From Quadrisphaera sp. DSM 44207 (GTDB taxonomy: Bacteria > Actinomycetota > Actinomycetes > Actinomycetales > Quadrisphaeraceae), in contig NZ_FNKA01000001.1 in assembly GCF_900101335.1 (NCBI RefSeq), positions 1,054,001 to 1,118,000 of the forward strand: a stretch of 64,000 nt of DNA. Reading direction: 5' to 3'. How positions within the stretch are numbered: the first letter of the stretch is position 1; each line of letters starts with the position of its first letter. A program made the position numbers and the translations under genes. Shown piece after piece: positions 27,912 through 52,933 of this stretch. The notes below the pieces were generated by a model, which worked only from the letters and a program-made list of their open reading frames with translations, was not told the DNA's origin and did not search any database.

Positions 27912-28685
27912 TCAGCCCTCCCCGCCGGGCTCGACGATCTCGGTGATGCGGATGCCGTAGTCCTCGTCCACGACGACGACCTCGCCGCGGGCGAGCAGGC
28001 GGCCGTTGACCATCAGGTCGGCGGGCGCGCCGGCGGCGCGGTCGAGCTCGACGACCGAGCCGGGGGTGAGCCCGAGCAGCTCGCGCACCGACAGGCGGGC
28101 GCGGCCGAGCTCGACGGTCAGCGTCATCTCCACGTCGCGCAGCAGGTGCAGGCCGGAGCCGGCGCCGAGCGGGCGGGCGGGCGCCCCGGCCGGCGCGGCG
28201 GCCCGCACGGGGCTGCCGTCGGCGGCGCGCAGGCGCAGGCCGACCCAGGCGGCGACCTCCCCGTCGGCGACGAGCGGCACCAGGTGCAGCTCGGGCACGG
28301 TGAGCAGCTCGGCGACGGTGCTCGTGCGCGCCGGGGACAGGACGGCGACGCCCAGGGCGGCGACGGCCGCCTCCAGGGCGGGGGCGACGGCGGCCTCGAC
28401 GGGCAGCGGCCCGCCCTGGGCGCCGGCCAGGGCGGCCTCGAGCGCCGGGTCGACGACGACCGCGACGGCGCCGGAGACGTCGCCGGTGAACTCGGCGAGG
28501 ACGACGGTGGCCGCGGACTCCGGCGGCAGCGGCGTCTGCGTCGGGCCCGGCACGAGGGGCGACGGAGAGGGCAGCAGGGCCGCGGCCGCGGAGGCGGCGG
28601 CGACGAGGAGGTCGGTCGGGGCCGCCCCGGCGGCGTCGGTGGCGGTCGCGGCGGCGGTCGTGGCGGCGTTCACGGCAGCGGTCAT
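27912..28685 (-). CDS. fliN: Flagellar switch protein FliN/FliY
   Basis: A 257-residue C-ring protein. The C-terminal 80 residues are a FliN/SpoA domain (LRDVEMTLTVELGRARLSVR, GSVVELDRAAGAPADLMVNG, VVVDEDYGIRITEIV). Residues 55-165 resemble the CheC-like domain of FliY but lack the E-x2-N phosphatase motif. The length is therefore FliY-like rather than FliN-like (about 130). It would form the C-ring with FliM and FliG. The ATG overlaps the fliM stop. No CheY-docking peptide is visible at the N-terminus. Confidence 0.92.
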   Translation of the reverse strand: MTAAVNAATTAAATATDAAGAAPTDLLVAAASAAAALLPSPSPLVPGPTQTPLPPESAATVVLAEFTGDVSGAVAVVVDPALEAALAGAQGGPLPVEAAVAPALEAAVAALGVAVLSPARTSTVAELLTVPELHLVPLVADGEVAAWVGLRLRAADGSPVRAAAPAGAPARPLGAGSGLHLLRDVEMTLTVELGRARLSVRELLGLTPGSVVELDRAAGAPADLMVNGRLLARGEVVVVDEDYGIRITEIVEPGGEG

Positions 28686-29620
28686 CGGGACTTCTCCTCC
28701 TCGGGGCTGACCACCAGGCAGGCCAGGCGGTGTCCGCTCGTGCCGGCGACGGCGCGGGCGAGGACGACGTCAGCCGTGACGACGTCCAGGGGTCGGGTGG
28801 TGGGGTGCGGCAGGCGCAGGACGTCGCCGACGGAGAGGGCGAGCACCTCGGCGGGGCGGGTGGTCATCGCGGCGAAGCGGGCGGAGACCTCCACGGGCAG
28901 CTCCGGCACGGCGCGGGAGAGGACGTCGGCGGCCTGGCGCTCCTTGCGCAGCTGCTCGACCGAGCGCGCGCGGTCCCCCGCGTCGCGCAGGCGGGCGAGC
29001 AGCTGCCCGGTCGGCAGCATGATCGTCGCCTCCACCGCCTCGGCGTCCTCGCCGAGGGCGATGCCGAGGGTGGCGATGACGACGACGTCGGCGGCCGCGG
29101 CGGCCTGCAGGAACTGGGGGTTGTAGTCGATGCCCGTCACGGCGGGCTCGAGCGGCAGCACGCCGGCGAGGGCGTAGGCCATGTCGGCGAGGCTGCGGGT
29201 GACGAGGTCGCGCAGCAGGCGGAACTCGATCTCGGTCAGCTCGCGCTCGGGGTGCGCGCCGCCGCCGCGGCCGCCCAGCATGAAGTCGACGCAGTCCAGG
29301 GCGGTGCCGGTGTCCAGCTGCACCAGCCCGGGCCCGGAGCCCTCGGCGGGGGTGAACGTGACCAGCACGGAGTGGCCCGGCAGGGAGCGCACGTACTCGT
29401 CGTACGTGCGGGAGGTCACGCCCGAGAGGGTGACCTGGCACGGGGTGCGCAGCCGGGTCAGCAGCAGCGTGGACCACTGGCGCGCGAAGGTCTCGAAGGC
29501 GACCTCCAGGGCGCGCGTGTGCTCGCGCGCCAGCGCGGTGGGGCGCCGGAAGTCGTAGGGCGTGACGACACCGCGGCGGCGCTTGCGCGGCGCCGGCGGG
29601 GCGGAGGTCTGGACGGTCAC
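28682..29620 (-). CDS. fliM: Flagellar motor switch protein FliM
   Basis: A 312-residue C-ring protein. The N-terminus leads into PYDFRRPTALAREHTRALEV, then the CheC-like middle domain and a C-terminal SpoA domain. The short N-terminal peptide with the LSQ-E-IDALL motif that binds CheY-P in many bacteria is absent, and no such motif lies upstream in frame. The GTG at 29620 is 7 nt from a FliA-type -10 box, so the mRNA is probably leaderless. A strong hairpin separates it from fliL, which makes fliM the head of a new transcript. Confidence 0.95.
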   Translation of the reverse strand: MTVQTSAPPAPRKRRRGVVTPYDFRRPTALAREHTRALEVAFETFARQWSTLLLTRLRTPCQVTLSGVTSRTYDEYVRSLPGHSVLVTFTPAEGSGPGLVQLDTGTALDCVDFMLGGRGGGAHPERELTEIEFRLLRDLVTRSLADMAYALAGVLPLEPAVTGIDYNPQFLQAAAAADVVVIATLGIALGEDAEAVEATIMLPTGQLLARLRDAGDRARSVEQLRKERQAADVLSRAVPELPVEVSARFAAMTTRPAEVLALSVGDVLRLPHPTTRPLDVVTADVVLARAVAGTSGHRLACLVVSPEEEKSR

Positions 29621-29627
29621 GAGGAGG

Positions 29628-29656
29628 CCATCGGCACGACGGCCCTGCGGGTTGAG
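29628..29656 (-). promoter_or_regulatory. FliA-type promoter of fliM
   Basis: Minus strand CTCAAC (29651-29656), 16-nt spacer, CCGATGG (29628-29634). The GTG of fliM is 7 nt from the -10 box. The palindrome CCGATCGG (29657-29664) abuts the -35 box. Confidence 0.7.
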
Positions 29657-29716
29657 CCGATCGGGTGGCCCGGGCGTGTCGCGCCCGGCGCCGCGCCCCT
29701 CACCCCCCTCCCCGCG

Positions 29717-33938: not shown

Positions 33939-34385
33939 TCAGCCGGGGCGGACCTCCGAGACGGCGTCCAGGGCGACGTCCTTCCCACCGACGCGCACCA
34001 CCGGCACGGAGCCGGCGAAGGACGCGCCCTCGACGAGCCCGGTGCGGGTCACGGCGGCGGTGCCCTCGCCCTCGGTCCAGCTCACCTGGCGCCCGAGGAG
34101 GGAGGAGGCGGACAGGCGCATCTGCAGCCCGAACGCCTCGCGGCTCGTCGTCGTCATCTCGGTGAGCTTCTCGACGGTGGTCAGCTGCGCCGTCTGCGCC
34201 ATGAACTGGCTGGAGTCCATGGGCGAGGACGGGTCCTGGTAGCGCATCTGCGTCACGAGGAGCTGGAGGAAGGCGTCCTTGCCGAGCGTGGTCCTGTCCT
34301 CGGCGGCGGCCTTGGCCGAGACCATGCTCTCGGCGACGACGGTCGTGCCGGCCGGCGCGCTCTGGCCCGTGGTGATGGACGTCAT
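33939..34385 (-). CDS. flgD: Hook-cap protein FlgD
   Basis: A 148-residue scaffold for hook assembly. The FlgD core GKDAFLQLLVTQMRYQDPSS lies at about residues 35-54, followed by the cap domain (FMAQTAQLTTVEKLTEMT and LLGRQVSWTEG). It is shorter than enteric FlgD (about 230), a length often seen in Gram-positives. The ATG at 34385 has GAAGGA upstream; longer in-frame starts lack a ribosome site. Confidence 0.94.
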   Translation of the reverse strand: MTSITTGQSAPAGTTVVAESMVSAKAAAEDRTTLGKDAFLQLLVTQMRYQDPSSPMDSSQFMAQTAQLTTVEKLTEMTTTSREAFGLQMRLSASSLLGRQVSWTEGEGTAAVTRTGLVEGASFAGSVPVVRVGGKDVALDAVSEVRPG

Positions 34386-34392
34386 GGAGGTT

Positions 34393-34421
34393 CCTTCGGT
34401 CGCGGTGCTGCTCTGCTTGAG
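34393..34421 (-). promoter_or_regulatory. Candidate FliA-type promoter of flgD-flgE
   Basis: Minus strand CTCAAG (34416-34421), 16-nt spacer, CCGAAGG (34393-34399). The -10 box differs from CCGAT by one base and overlaps the ribosome-site region, so this is a weaker candidate. CCGATCGG lies upstream at 34461-34468. Confidence 0.4.
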
Positions 34422-43045: not shown

Positions 43046-43386
43046 CAGCTCGTCCTCAGCGCCGTGGTGATGGACGTCAGCTTGCCGTCCATCGCCTGCG
43101 TCATCAGCTGGTAGCGCAGCTGCGTGTCGATGTTGCTCAGCGTCTCGGCGTCCAGGTTGACGTTGTTGCCGTCCTCGCGCGTCGGCGCGACGGAGCGCGA
43201 GAGCGTCGCGGCGGCGGAGCCGCTGCCGGAGGAGACGGCCGAGCGCAGGGCGTCCTCGAAGTCCACCCGGGCGGCCAGGTAGTGCGGCGTGTTGATGTTC
43301 GCGATGTTGTCGGCGGTCGCGCGCTGGCGGGCGGCGAGGCCGTCCAGGGCGCTGCGCAGCGCGACGGCACTGACGGAGTCGAACAC
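43045..43386 (-). CDS. flgB: Flagellar rod protein FlgB
   Basis: A 113-residue proximal-rod protein. It has the axial motif ADNIANINTPHYLAARVDFE and a C-terminal NIDTQLRYQLMTQAMDGKLT. GGAGG precedes the GTG at 43386. It heads the flgB-flgC-fliE-fliF-fliG-fliH-fliI-fliJ operon, driven by a FliA-type promoter. Confidence 0.95.
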   Translation of the reverse strand: MFDSVSAVALRSALDGLAARQRATADNIANINTPHYLAARVDFEDALRSAVSSGSGSAAATLSRSVAPTREDGNNVNLDAETLSNIDTQLRYQLMTQAMDGKLTSITTALRTS

Positions 43387-43477
43387 GGCGGGGCCTCCAC
43401 GAGATGGGGTGCGTCTTCGTGCGGGGCGGCCGTGTCCGTGGCCTGTCGTGCGGTGAGCGGTCCATCGCTCACGAGGG

Positions 43478-43505
43478 GTATCGGCGCGCCGGCCGTTTCC
43501 TTGAG
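43478..43505 (-). promoter_or_regulatory. FliA-type promoter of the flgB operon
   Basis: Minus strand CTCAAG (43500-43505), 15-nt spacer, CCGATAC (43478-43484). The leader would be about 85 nt. CCGATCGG lies upstream at 43518-43525. Confidence 0.7.
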
Positions 43506-43559
43506 CCCGCGGTCCACCCGATCGGCGGTGCTCCGCCCGGGCGGGTCCCCCGCGCGTCC

Positions 43560-45885: not shown

Positions 45886-46740
45886 TCAGCGCAGGAGGGA
45901 CAGCACGCCCTGCGGGATCTGGTTGGCCTGGGCCAGCATCGAGGTGCCGGCCTGGGACAGGATCTGCGCGCGGGTGAACTTGGACATCTCAGCAGCCATG
46001 TCCGTGTCGCGGATCCGGCTCTCCGACGCGGAGAGGTTCTCCACCGCGACGTTGAGGTTCTTGATGGTGTGCTCGAAGCGGTTCTGCTTCGCACCCAGGT
46101 CGGCCCGCACCGTCGAGACCGTCTTGATGGCGGCGTCGATCGCGGTGATCGCCTGGTCGGCGCCGCTCGGGGCGGTGCCGGCCGCGGCGGTCGTGACGTC
46201 CACGGTGTTCACCCCGAGGCCGACGGCGCCCAGGCCGGTGCCGGCGGTCCCGTTGTTGACGGTGACGGTGATGACCTCACCGACGTTGGCGCCCACCTGG
46301 AACTTGCCGGCGTAGCTGCCGTCGAGCAGCTTGGTGCCGTTGTACTGGGTGGTGTCGGCGATCCGGGTCAGCTCGCTCTTGAGCTCGCCGATCTCGGACT
46401 GGATGTTCTTCTTGGCGTCCGTGTTGAGGCCGCCGTCGTTCGCCGCCTGCACGGACAGGGTGCGCATGCGCTGCAGGATCGCGTGGGACTCGGTCAGCGC
46501 GCCCTCGGCGGTCTGGACGACGGAGACGCCGTCCTGAGCGTTGCGGGAGGCCTGCTTGAGCCCGCCGACCTGCGCGCGCAGGCCCTCGGAGATGGCCAGA
46601 CCAGCCGCGTCGTCCGCAGCGCGGTTGATCCGGAAGCCGCTGGACAGCTTCTCCAGGGACTTGGAGAGGTCGCCCTGCGTGACCGAGAGGTTCCGGTACG
46701 CGTTGAACGCGGCGATGTTCTGGTTGATCGACAGAGCCAT
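45886..46740 (-). CDS. fliC: Flagellin
   Basis: A 284-residue compact flagellin. The N-terminal D0/D1 helices (SINQNIAAFNAYRNLSVTQG, LSSGFRINRAADDAAGLAIS) and C-terminal D1/D0 helices (NLSASESRIRDTDMAAEMSK) are well conserved. The variable centre (about 140-200) is short, so outer D2/D3 domains are minimal. Ser and Thr in the centre are potential glycosylation sites. GGAGGA precedes the ATG. A FliA-type promoter drives it, and CsrA/FliW probably control translation. Confidence 0.98.
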   Translation of the reverse strand: MALSINQNIAAFNAYRNLSVTQGDLSKSLEKLSSGFRINRAADDAAGLAISEGLRAQVGGLKQASRNAQDGVSVVQTAEGALTESHAILQRMRTLSVQAANDGGLNTDAKKNIQSEIGELKSELTRIADTTQYNGTKLLDGSYAGKFQVGANVGEVITVTVNNGTAGTGLGAVGLGVNTVDVTTAAAGTAPSGADQAITAIDAAIKTVSTVRADLGAKQNRFEHTIKNLNVAVENLSASESRIRDTDMAAEMSKFTRAQILSQAGTSMLAQANQIPQGVLSLLR

Positions 46741-46797
46741 GGTCGTTCCTCCGTGAGGTGGGTGGTGCTGATGCCCGTCCGTGGGCCATCACGAGGT

Positions 46798-46825
46798 CCA
46801 TCGGTGCCTGCCGCCAGGGCTTGAG
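46798..46825 (-). promoter_or_regulatory. FliA-type promoter of fliC
   Basis: Minus strand CTCAAG (46820-46825), 15-nt spacer, CCGATGG (46798-46804). The leader would be about 50 nt. The upstream palindrome CCGATCGG is at 46847-46854. Confidence 0.75.
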
Positions 46826-51737: not shown

Positions 51738-52742
51738 TCAGGCCGTGACGGCCTGGGGGAAGCGCCGTCGCTGGGCGGCGCTGGTCTGCGGGGCAGCGGG
51801 TGCGGTGGCAGCGGGTGCGGTGGCAGCCGGCGTGGCAGCCGGCGTGGCAGCCGGCGCGGCGGCCGGAGCCTCGGCCGCCGGGCGCGCCGCGGCCTGTGCG
51901 GCCACGGCCGCGTAGTAGGCCTGACGGCGCCGGGCGACCGCGCCGTCCGGGCGCTCGGGCCGCGCGAGCAGCTCGGGGGCCAGGGAGGCGTTCATGCCGT
52001 CGCGCAGCAGCCCCAGCGCCTCGGCGCGCAGCTGGCTGACGCGCGACTCGGTCACGCCCAGCTCGGCGGCGATCTCGGTGGCCGGCCGGTCGTGCAGGAA
52101 CAGGCCCTCGACGACGGCGCGCAGCCGCTCGGGCAGCGTGGTCACCGCCGCGTGCAGGTAGCGCACCTGCTCCTTCTGCAGCAGCTGCTCCTCCGGGCCG
52201 GGCCCGTTCTGCGGCAGGACGTCGGACAGCGTGCCGTCGTGGGCGTCGAGGCTGAGCAGGCTGCGCTCGGACTCCGCGCGCACCGCGTCGACGTCCCCGG
52301 GCGAGCAGCCCATCGCCGCCGCCAGCTCGTCGCGGGTCGGGCGCCGCCCGAGGCGGGTGGTCAGCGCCTCCTCGGCGCCCGCGAGGGCCCGGGCGCGGGT
52401 GCGGGTGCCGCGCGGCGCCCAGTCCATGGCGCGCAGCTCGTCCAGCAGGGCCCCGCGCACGCGCAGCGACGCGTAGCGCGCGAACGGCACGTTCGTCGCC
52501 TCGTCGTAGCTGGTGGCGGCCGCCGCGAGCGCCGCGAGGCCGGCGGAGACCAGCTCGTCGCGCTGCACGTGGCCGGGCAGGCGGGCCATCGTCTCGCTCA
52601 CCTGGTAGCCGACGATCGGCAGGTGGGTGCGGACGAGGTCCTCCACGCCGGCGCGGTCGCGCGCGGGGCGGGGGAGGGACGTCGGGGCGGACGTCGAGGC
52701 GGACGTCGAGGCGGACGTCGGGGCGGGCGTCGCGGTGGGCAC
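51738..52742 (-). CDS. fliA: Flagellar-type sigma factor (FliA/WhiG family)
   Basis: A 334-residue sigma-70 factor of the FliA/WhiG group. Region 2 includes GYQVSETMARLPGHVQRDEL and FARYASLRVRGALLDELRAM, region 3 LGRRPTRDELAAAMG, region 4 LPERLRAVVEGLFLHDRPAT with a helix-turn-helix ELGVTESRVSQLR. Both ends carry low-complexity tails (Ser/Thr/Pro N-terminus; Ala/Pro/Thr C-terminus of about 55 residues). The GTG at 52742 is 7 nt from a FliA-type -10 box, implying a leaderless, self-activated transcript. No FlgM anti-sigma gene is visible. Confidence 0.92.
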   Translation of the reverse strand: MPTATPAPTSASTSASTSAPTSLPRPARDRAGVEDLVRTHLPIVGYQVSETMARLPGHVQRDELVSAGLAALAAAATSYDEATNVPFARYASLRVRGALLDELRAMDWAPRGTRTRARALAGAEEALTTRLGRRPTRDELAAAMGCSPGDVDAVRAESERSLLSLDAHDGTLSDVLPQNGPGPEEQLLQKEQVRYLHAAVTTLPERLRAVVEGLFLHDRPATEIAAELGVTESRVSQLRAEALGLLRDGMNASLAPELLARPERPDGAVARRRQAYYAAVAAQAAARPAAEAPAAAPAATPAATPAATAPAATAPAAPQTSAAQRRRFPQAVTA

Positions 52743-52749
52743 GCAGGAG

Positions 52750-52778
52750 GTGTCGGCGCGGGGGCCGCCGTCCTTGAG
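52750..52778 (-). promoter_or_regulatory. FliA-type promoter of the sigma-factor gene
   Basis: Minus strand CTCAAG (52773-52778), 16-nt spacer, CCGACAC (52750-52756). The GTG start is 7 nt beyond, as at fliM. It suggests autoregulation. Confidence 0.55.
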
Positions 52779-52851: not shown

Positions 52852-52879
52852 CTCAACCGGAGCACCCGCGTGCCGATGG
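52852..52879 (+). promoter_or_regulatory. FliA-type promoter of flgN-flgK-flgL-fliW
   Basis: Plus strand CTCAAC (52852-52857), 15-nt spacer, CCGATGG (52873-52879). It is divergent from the sigma-gene promoter, with about 73 bp between the -35 boxes. Confidence 0.7.
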
Positions 52880-52933
52880 AGACCCCGAGGACGACTGCGT
52901 CCGAGGTGTGCACGACGGAGCGAGGGGGTGGGC

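Follow-up and report, generated by a model that had tools for sequence, protein, structure and literature searches.

Predicted leaderless messages for a flagellar-cluster sigma factor and fliM under sigma28-class promoters in Quadrisphaera and relatives

Two genes of Quadrisphaera sp. DSM 44207, encoding a FliA/WhiG-like sigma factor and the flagellar motor switch protein FliM, very probably give rise to leaderless mRNAs, transcription beginning directly at the start codon. Both lie in the 64,000-nucleotide stretch analysed here (the window; C1:1054001-1118000 of a 3.2-Mb genome). They would be transcribed from sigma28-class promoters (FliA/WhiG type) and translated from the 5' end of the message, without a Shine-Dalgarno (SD) site, in a gene-specific arrangement that appears to be retained across most sampled families of the order. 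The sequences themselves show the promoter boxes, a constant spacing between box and start codon among relatives, and how the leadered flgN differs. We infer the 5' ends, and with them leaderless translation, by taking the fifth base (A) of GCCGA as the -11 base, which would place +1 on the start codon. In a study on Actinoplanes missouriensis, a message starting 1 nt before its codon is likewise termed leaderless (PMC11064477).

The coordinates (Table 1) bear out a first-pass annotation in which a GTG was placed exactly 7 nt from a FliA-type -10 box in both genes. The ribosome-binding site reported there as missing is indeed not apparent, since no SD-like 4-mer precedes the sigma or the fliM start. 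The sigma gene belongs to the flagellar cluster and is transcribed divergently from flgN-flgK. Its best-scoring NCBIfam family is TIGR02479, at 164.4 bits and below the cut-off of 189.6; in Pfam, Sigma70 regions 3 and 4 exceed their cut-offs and region 2 (23.6) falls just under its cut-off of 24. By sigma protein, near named loci are those of Quadrisphaera sp. INWT6 and 'Streptomyces' sp. NP160. The protein carries a C-terminal extension past region 4, in which RRRQAYYAAVAAQ (51894-51932, minus strand) is recognisable in many of 14 aligned relatives. Its N terminus (52677-52718, minus strand) contains a short in-frame repeat of GACGTCCGCCTC units, encoding TSAS, a form not seen in the aligned relatives.

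Table 1. Positions of promoters, genes and upstream elements within the window.
Feature	Position	Strand	Details
FliA/WhiG-like sigma factor gene	51738..52742	-	334 aa, GTG start 52742-52740
Sigma promoter and start	52740..52778	-	CTCAAG 52778-52773, 15 nt, GCCGACAC 52757-52750, 7 nt, GTG 52742-52740
fliM, flagellar motor switch	28682..29620	-	312 aa, GTG start; PF02154 111.6 bits, PF01052 46.5 bits, both above cut-off
fliM promoter and start	29618..29656	-	CTCAAC 29656-29651, 15 nt, GCCGATGG 29635-29628, 7 nt, GTG 29620-29618
flgN (then flgK) divergent promoter	52852..52930	+	CTCAAC-N14-GCCGATGG 52852-52879, 48-nt leader, GTG 52928; leadered comparison; FlgN, FlgK by Pfam
fliC (flagellin) promoter	46738..46825	-	CTCAAG-N14-ACCGATGG 46825-46798, 57-nt leader with GGAGG, ATG 46740; flagellin by Pfam
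flgB-like rod gene promoter	43384..43505	-	CTCAAG-N14-GCCGATAC 43505-43478, 91-nt leader, GTG 43386; Flg_bb_rod by Pfam
flgD promoter and start	34383..34421	-	CTCAAG-N15-ACCGAAGG-7 nt-ATG; FlgD by Pfam
Element CACCCGATCGG	29657..29667	-	adjoins fliM -35
Element CACCCGATCGG	43515-43525	+	adjoins flgB promoter

Across the genome, the pattern CTCAAN15-17GCCGA has 37 matches, against 9 for a reversed control pattern. By judgement, 28 of these were kept as promoters and nine, which lie inside genes or have no gene behind them, were left out (L009, L014, L021-L025, L142 and L145). Genes behind the motif sites encode, by Pfam, FlgN, FlbD, FHIPEP (flhA), CheB, a rod protein, a chemoreceptor, GGDEF and EAL proteins, a T2SSE ATPase (PilT-like) and a protein with an N-terminal methylation motif. 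Six of the 28 kept sites have a long frame beginning 7-8 nt downstream of the box, namely sigma, fliM, both GGDEF loci (L003 and L027), L031 (EAL) and L002 (chemoreceptor). At the remaining 22, the start judged likeliest lies at least 21 nt from the box, L008 having in addition an in-frame ATG at 1 nt. A search for a pattern with the start 7 nt after the box, allowing up to two mismatches, returned 383 genome and 168 control matches and was unusable, there being too many coding coincidences; the sigma and fliM sites are absent among the matches listed for it, though exact matches were expected.

Outside the window, a candidate start follows a sigma28-class box at 7 nt in L003, L027 and L031, which encode two GGDEF proteins and one EAL protein. 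The leaderless arrangement may extend to these c-di-GMP enzymes, with other starts possible: later in-frame GTGs of L031 are preceded by GGAGG, AGGAG stands before the GTG of L027, and L003 has a later start of equal score. Within the window, flgD is perhaps another leaderless gene, though its box region can act as an SD sequence as well (AAGGA); the same arrangement, with the box 7 nt before the ATG, recurs in genome G057. Two further loci outside the window, L008 and L147, encode proteins of ~200 residues that are alike by eye, have sigma28-class promoters and matched no Pfam family; their designation as TasA-like was withdrawn for want of Pfam support.

Comparison with relatives strongly supports the prediction that the sigma and fliM messages are leaderless. 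A promoter matrix made from 26 of the genome's own promoters, excluding those of sigma and fliM, was used to scan the ~300 nt preceding the conserved domain; the relatives in the resulting counts are not independent samples. Sigma genes were reached through FlgK, 30 FlgK loci yielding 24 sigma matches with the genome's own included, and in 20 of the 24 the first in-frame start lies exactly 7 nt after the best box (null 0.9%). The arrangement fits in seven of nine families, failing in f9 (two genomes), in f13 (one) and in one of three genomes of f15. The four genes that fail are L154, L156, L157 and L173, the last of which fits by eye with a CGAAAG -35. For fliM, the start lies 6-8 nt after the box in 28 of 30 genomes, own included (null 2.3%): 18 at 7 nt, six at 6 and four at 8, with one further gene at 4 (which has a GTG at 7 too) and one without any; three of the matrix matches (L052-L054) score weakly. 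By contrast, none of 27 starts of the control gene flgN, divergent from sigma in the same intergenic regions, falls at 6-8 nt. SD-like 4-mers, overlapping the box, precede five of 22 sigma and six of 29 fliM starts. The 26-gene sigma set behind the SD, start-codon and upstream-element counts includes L065 and L066, which were added once seen to fit and are excluded from the 20/24 above (22/26 with them) and the 19/20 below.

Farther afield the picture changes. Among the 17 closest of 80 named sigma loci, five have the start at 7 nt (three of them from genomes already counted), one at 6 and one, with a weak score, at 8. Ten do not fit (two at 17 nt, eight with none), among them loci of Actinokineospora, Mobiluncus, Actinoplanes, Cryobacterium and Microbacterium. 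Over all 80, many of which are distant sigma relatives, five lie at 7 nt. As most named sigma loci misfit, the arrangement is not general in actinobacteria.

The promoters could be real and the start codons nonetheless misassigned, with the GTG serving as initiator sequence only and translation beginning further downstream; we consider this very unlikely. GTG triplets near +1 do occur at leadered promoters, and at 4-7 nt after the box they were found at the leadered or wrong-frame sites L011, L012, L016 and L019 and at the dropped site L022. However, ATG takes the place of GTG in two sigma and two fliM genes (all others having GTG), with the frame retained, and the triplet is therefore kept as a start codon. 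Downstream, the next four tabulated in-frame starts of the sigma gene lack an SD-like match and the fifth has GAGG; the next three in-frame starts of fliM all lack one. In a literature survey covering titles and abstract beginnings, mainly of open-access papers, neither sigma nor fliM genes were described as leaderless.

The promoters fall into two sub-types. Spacers were compared in 17 fetched clusters and the window, using a score that favours no spacer; for sigma, ten of 16 genomes were used (three were ambiguous and three under threshold). Spacers of N15 or N16 were found for sigma in all ten scored, for fliM in 14 of 18 and for flgB in 11 of 15, and spacers of N14 or N13 for flgN in 15 of 15, fliC in 15 of 17 and flbD in 15 of 16. 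The ratio of spacers of at most 14 nt to those of at least 15 nt is thus 4:24 for sigma and fliM against 45:3 for flgN, fliC and flbD (Fisher p ~1e-12, overstated because the genomes are related). At the fifth position of the -35, A occurs in 25 of 28 sigma and fliM promoters compared with 12 of 48 of the others, under a score that itself favours A. The sixth box base also separates the two leaderless candidates from each other, T being present in one of 20 sigma and 21 of 29 fliM promoters (Fisher 1.9e-6); with spacer-neutral scoring, T stands at this position in two of ten sigma boxes. In the genome's own sigma box, GCCGACAC, the sixth base is C.

Some of the relatives have elements related to CACCCGATCGG ahead of sigma, fliM and flgB. 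The form CACCCGnn[CA][GA]G is found no more than 63 nt ahead of the -35 in nine of 24 sigma (L065 and L066 included) and nine of 27 fliM promoters, compared with <1% in shuffles; the genome's own sigma promoter has no element of this or the CACCCGATCGG type. Half-sites CACCCG/CGGGTG were counted at sigma (8/12), fliM (8/18) and flgB (9/16), with 1.1-1.4 expected each. Because they are about as frequent at flgN (6/15), fliC (8/15) and flbD (9/17), against the same expectation, the half-site is not specific to one promoter class. A 22-bp repeat is present at fliM in four of 18 and at flgB in one of 16. The upstream element is similar to one half of the TcrA box, GCA(A/C)CCG, which has an 11-bp repeat (PMC12691653).

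Which sigma factor reads these promoters, whether the FliA-like one of the window, WhiG or both, bears on regulation. A WhiG is encoded at C3:642317 (NF004935 417.8 bits, cut-off 343; TIGR02479 277.7 bits; 378.9 bits against PDB chain 6pfj_A), and each of the 18 genomes examined, this one among them, has a WhiG-class sigma (TIGR02479 at least 243 bits). The two sigmas have the core RGA..DELRAMDW.PR in common. Since a sigma of the same promoter class occurs in all 18, a FliA-type box does not reveal its sigma, and for the same reason none of these genomes shows what the window sigma does on its own. No sigma28-class promoter scoring over 6.0 was found upstream of whiG. The first-pass proposal that the sigma gene and fliM are directly controlled by the flagellar sigma, with positive autoregulation, may hold; the presence of a WhiG-class sigma in all of these genomes, together with the different sub-type of the sigma and fliM promoters relative to flgN, fliC and flbD, weighs against taking it as given.

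The absence of FlgM, first noted for the window, extends to the genome, where the best PF04316 score is 14.1 bits against a cut-off of 25. None of 59 genomes, own included, exceeds that cut-off, compared with three of 14 control genomes; fliM is present in 30 of the 59. A phylogenomic study states that actinobacterial classes without FlgFG lack FlgM (PMC10746217). How the loop is restrained had been left open, and to this can now be added a candidate, an RsiG homologue encoded outside the window, whose action on the flagellar system is a prediction. The 183-aa protein at C4:28848 scores 58.1 bits with PF22802 (RsiG-like; cut-off 27). Its match to PDB chain 6pfj_T, listed as AmfC protein, has E 4.6e-11, and those to chains listed as RsiG have E 0.001-0.0015; we take 6pfj_T to be RsiG bound to WhiG. 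The RsiG motif follows E(X)3S(X)2R(X)3Q(X)3D, twice in twin-motif forms. Judged by this formula, the first copy, ETDLSYTRRLLQGRLD, fits, whereas a second, ERRVSGLRRRVQDVEA, agrees by eye at four of its five positions. Searched as a DNA pattern, the motif has three matches in the genome, one of them in this 183-aa protein, and one in the control.

In Streptomyces, RsiG holds WhiG with c-di-GMP, and in Rubrobacter predicted WhiG promoters precede pilus and DGC/PDE genes (both PMC8325347); a phosphodiesterase that antagonises RsiG on WhiG is reported (PMC13232838). The Quadrisphaera homologue might bind WhiG, the window sigma or neither of them, and it may stand in for the missing FlgM brake. That a second-messenger gate further upstream replaces FlgM is a tentative suggestion, to which we give clearly less than an even chance. 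The titles and abstract beginnings surveyed, mainly of open-access papers, contain no report of RsiG control of flagella.

Two accounts of the regulation can be weighed against each other. Under simple positive autoregulation, the window sigma alone would read its own promoter and that of fliM, its off-consensus box limiting the loop. The retention of a sigma28-class promoter at the sigma gene in relatives, and the position of that gene beside flgN-flgK, agree well with this reading and bring it near to an even chance; the WhiG-class sigma in every genome tested and the off-consensus own box in 19 of 20 sigma genes keep it from being more.

As a bold alternative we propose an RsiG-gated cascade from WhiG to the flagellar sigma, which we regard as a serious contender with somewhat less than an even chance. 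WhiG, held by RsiG at high c-di-GMP, would start an early class (the sigma gene, fliM, pilus and c-di-GMP genes), and the window sigma would then drive a late class (flgN, fliC and flbD), so that the sigma would not, or not mainly, be autoregulated; early and late are here assumed by analogy with other bacteria. The spacer contrast between sigma plus fliM and the late set speaks for such a division, but that the two sigmas prefer different spacers is an assumption, their shared core speaking against it, and N14 spacers occur in flgB of four of 15 scored genomes (own included) and in fliM of four of 18. The lack of T at box position 6 in 19 of 20 sigma boxes is also consistent with a cascade, as is, less uniformly, its lack in eight of 29 fliM boxes. 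The genome encodes both a WhiG orthologue and an RsiG homologue, the search for the latter having covered this genome, and the cascade is predicted from sequence. Also in favour, the genome's own N15 promoters stand before GGDEF, EAL, T2SSE/PilT-like and prepilin-like genes, in parallel with the predicted WhiG targets of Rubrobacter (PMC8325347).

Like mycobacterial leaderless genes (PMC4633059, PMC7148126), the sigma gene and fliM are predicted to give messages that open with ATG or GTG, and they lack a Shine-Dalgarno site and have normal -10 spacing. Unlike them, they belong with sigma28-type promoters of flagellar and c-di-GMP genes, and their 5' ends are predicted from sequence. The genome resembles RsiG-WhiG systems in encoding WhiG and an RsiG homologue and in having sigma28-class promoters at pilus-like and GGDEF/EAL genes; it differs in possessing a flagellar cluster that includes a FliA-like sigma of its own, to which the tie of RsiG-WhiG is a proposal. 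Several FliA/WhiG-family sigmas are also described for Actinoplanes missouriensis (PMC11064477, PMC12691653). By contrast, Actinoplanes is reported to lack RsiG, and the single Actinoplanes sigma locus tested (L073) is without the 7-nt arrangement.

In the FliA-FlgM loop of E. coli and Salmonella, the flagellar sigma uses GCCGAT-type boxes, as here; by contrast, Quadrisphaera has no FlgM by Pfam and the sigma mRNA is predicted to be leaderless. The analysis carries a warning that in such genomes a FliA-type box is by itself no proof of flagellar-sigma control. It also offers an example that can be counted: genes for a sigma factor and a motor protein that look leaderless under promoters of the sigma28 class across many families of one order. 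The restraint of the flagellar sigma in FlgM-less actinobacteria thereby becomes a concrete question about RsiG, WhiG and two promoter sub-types.
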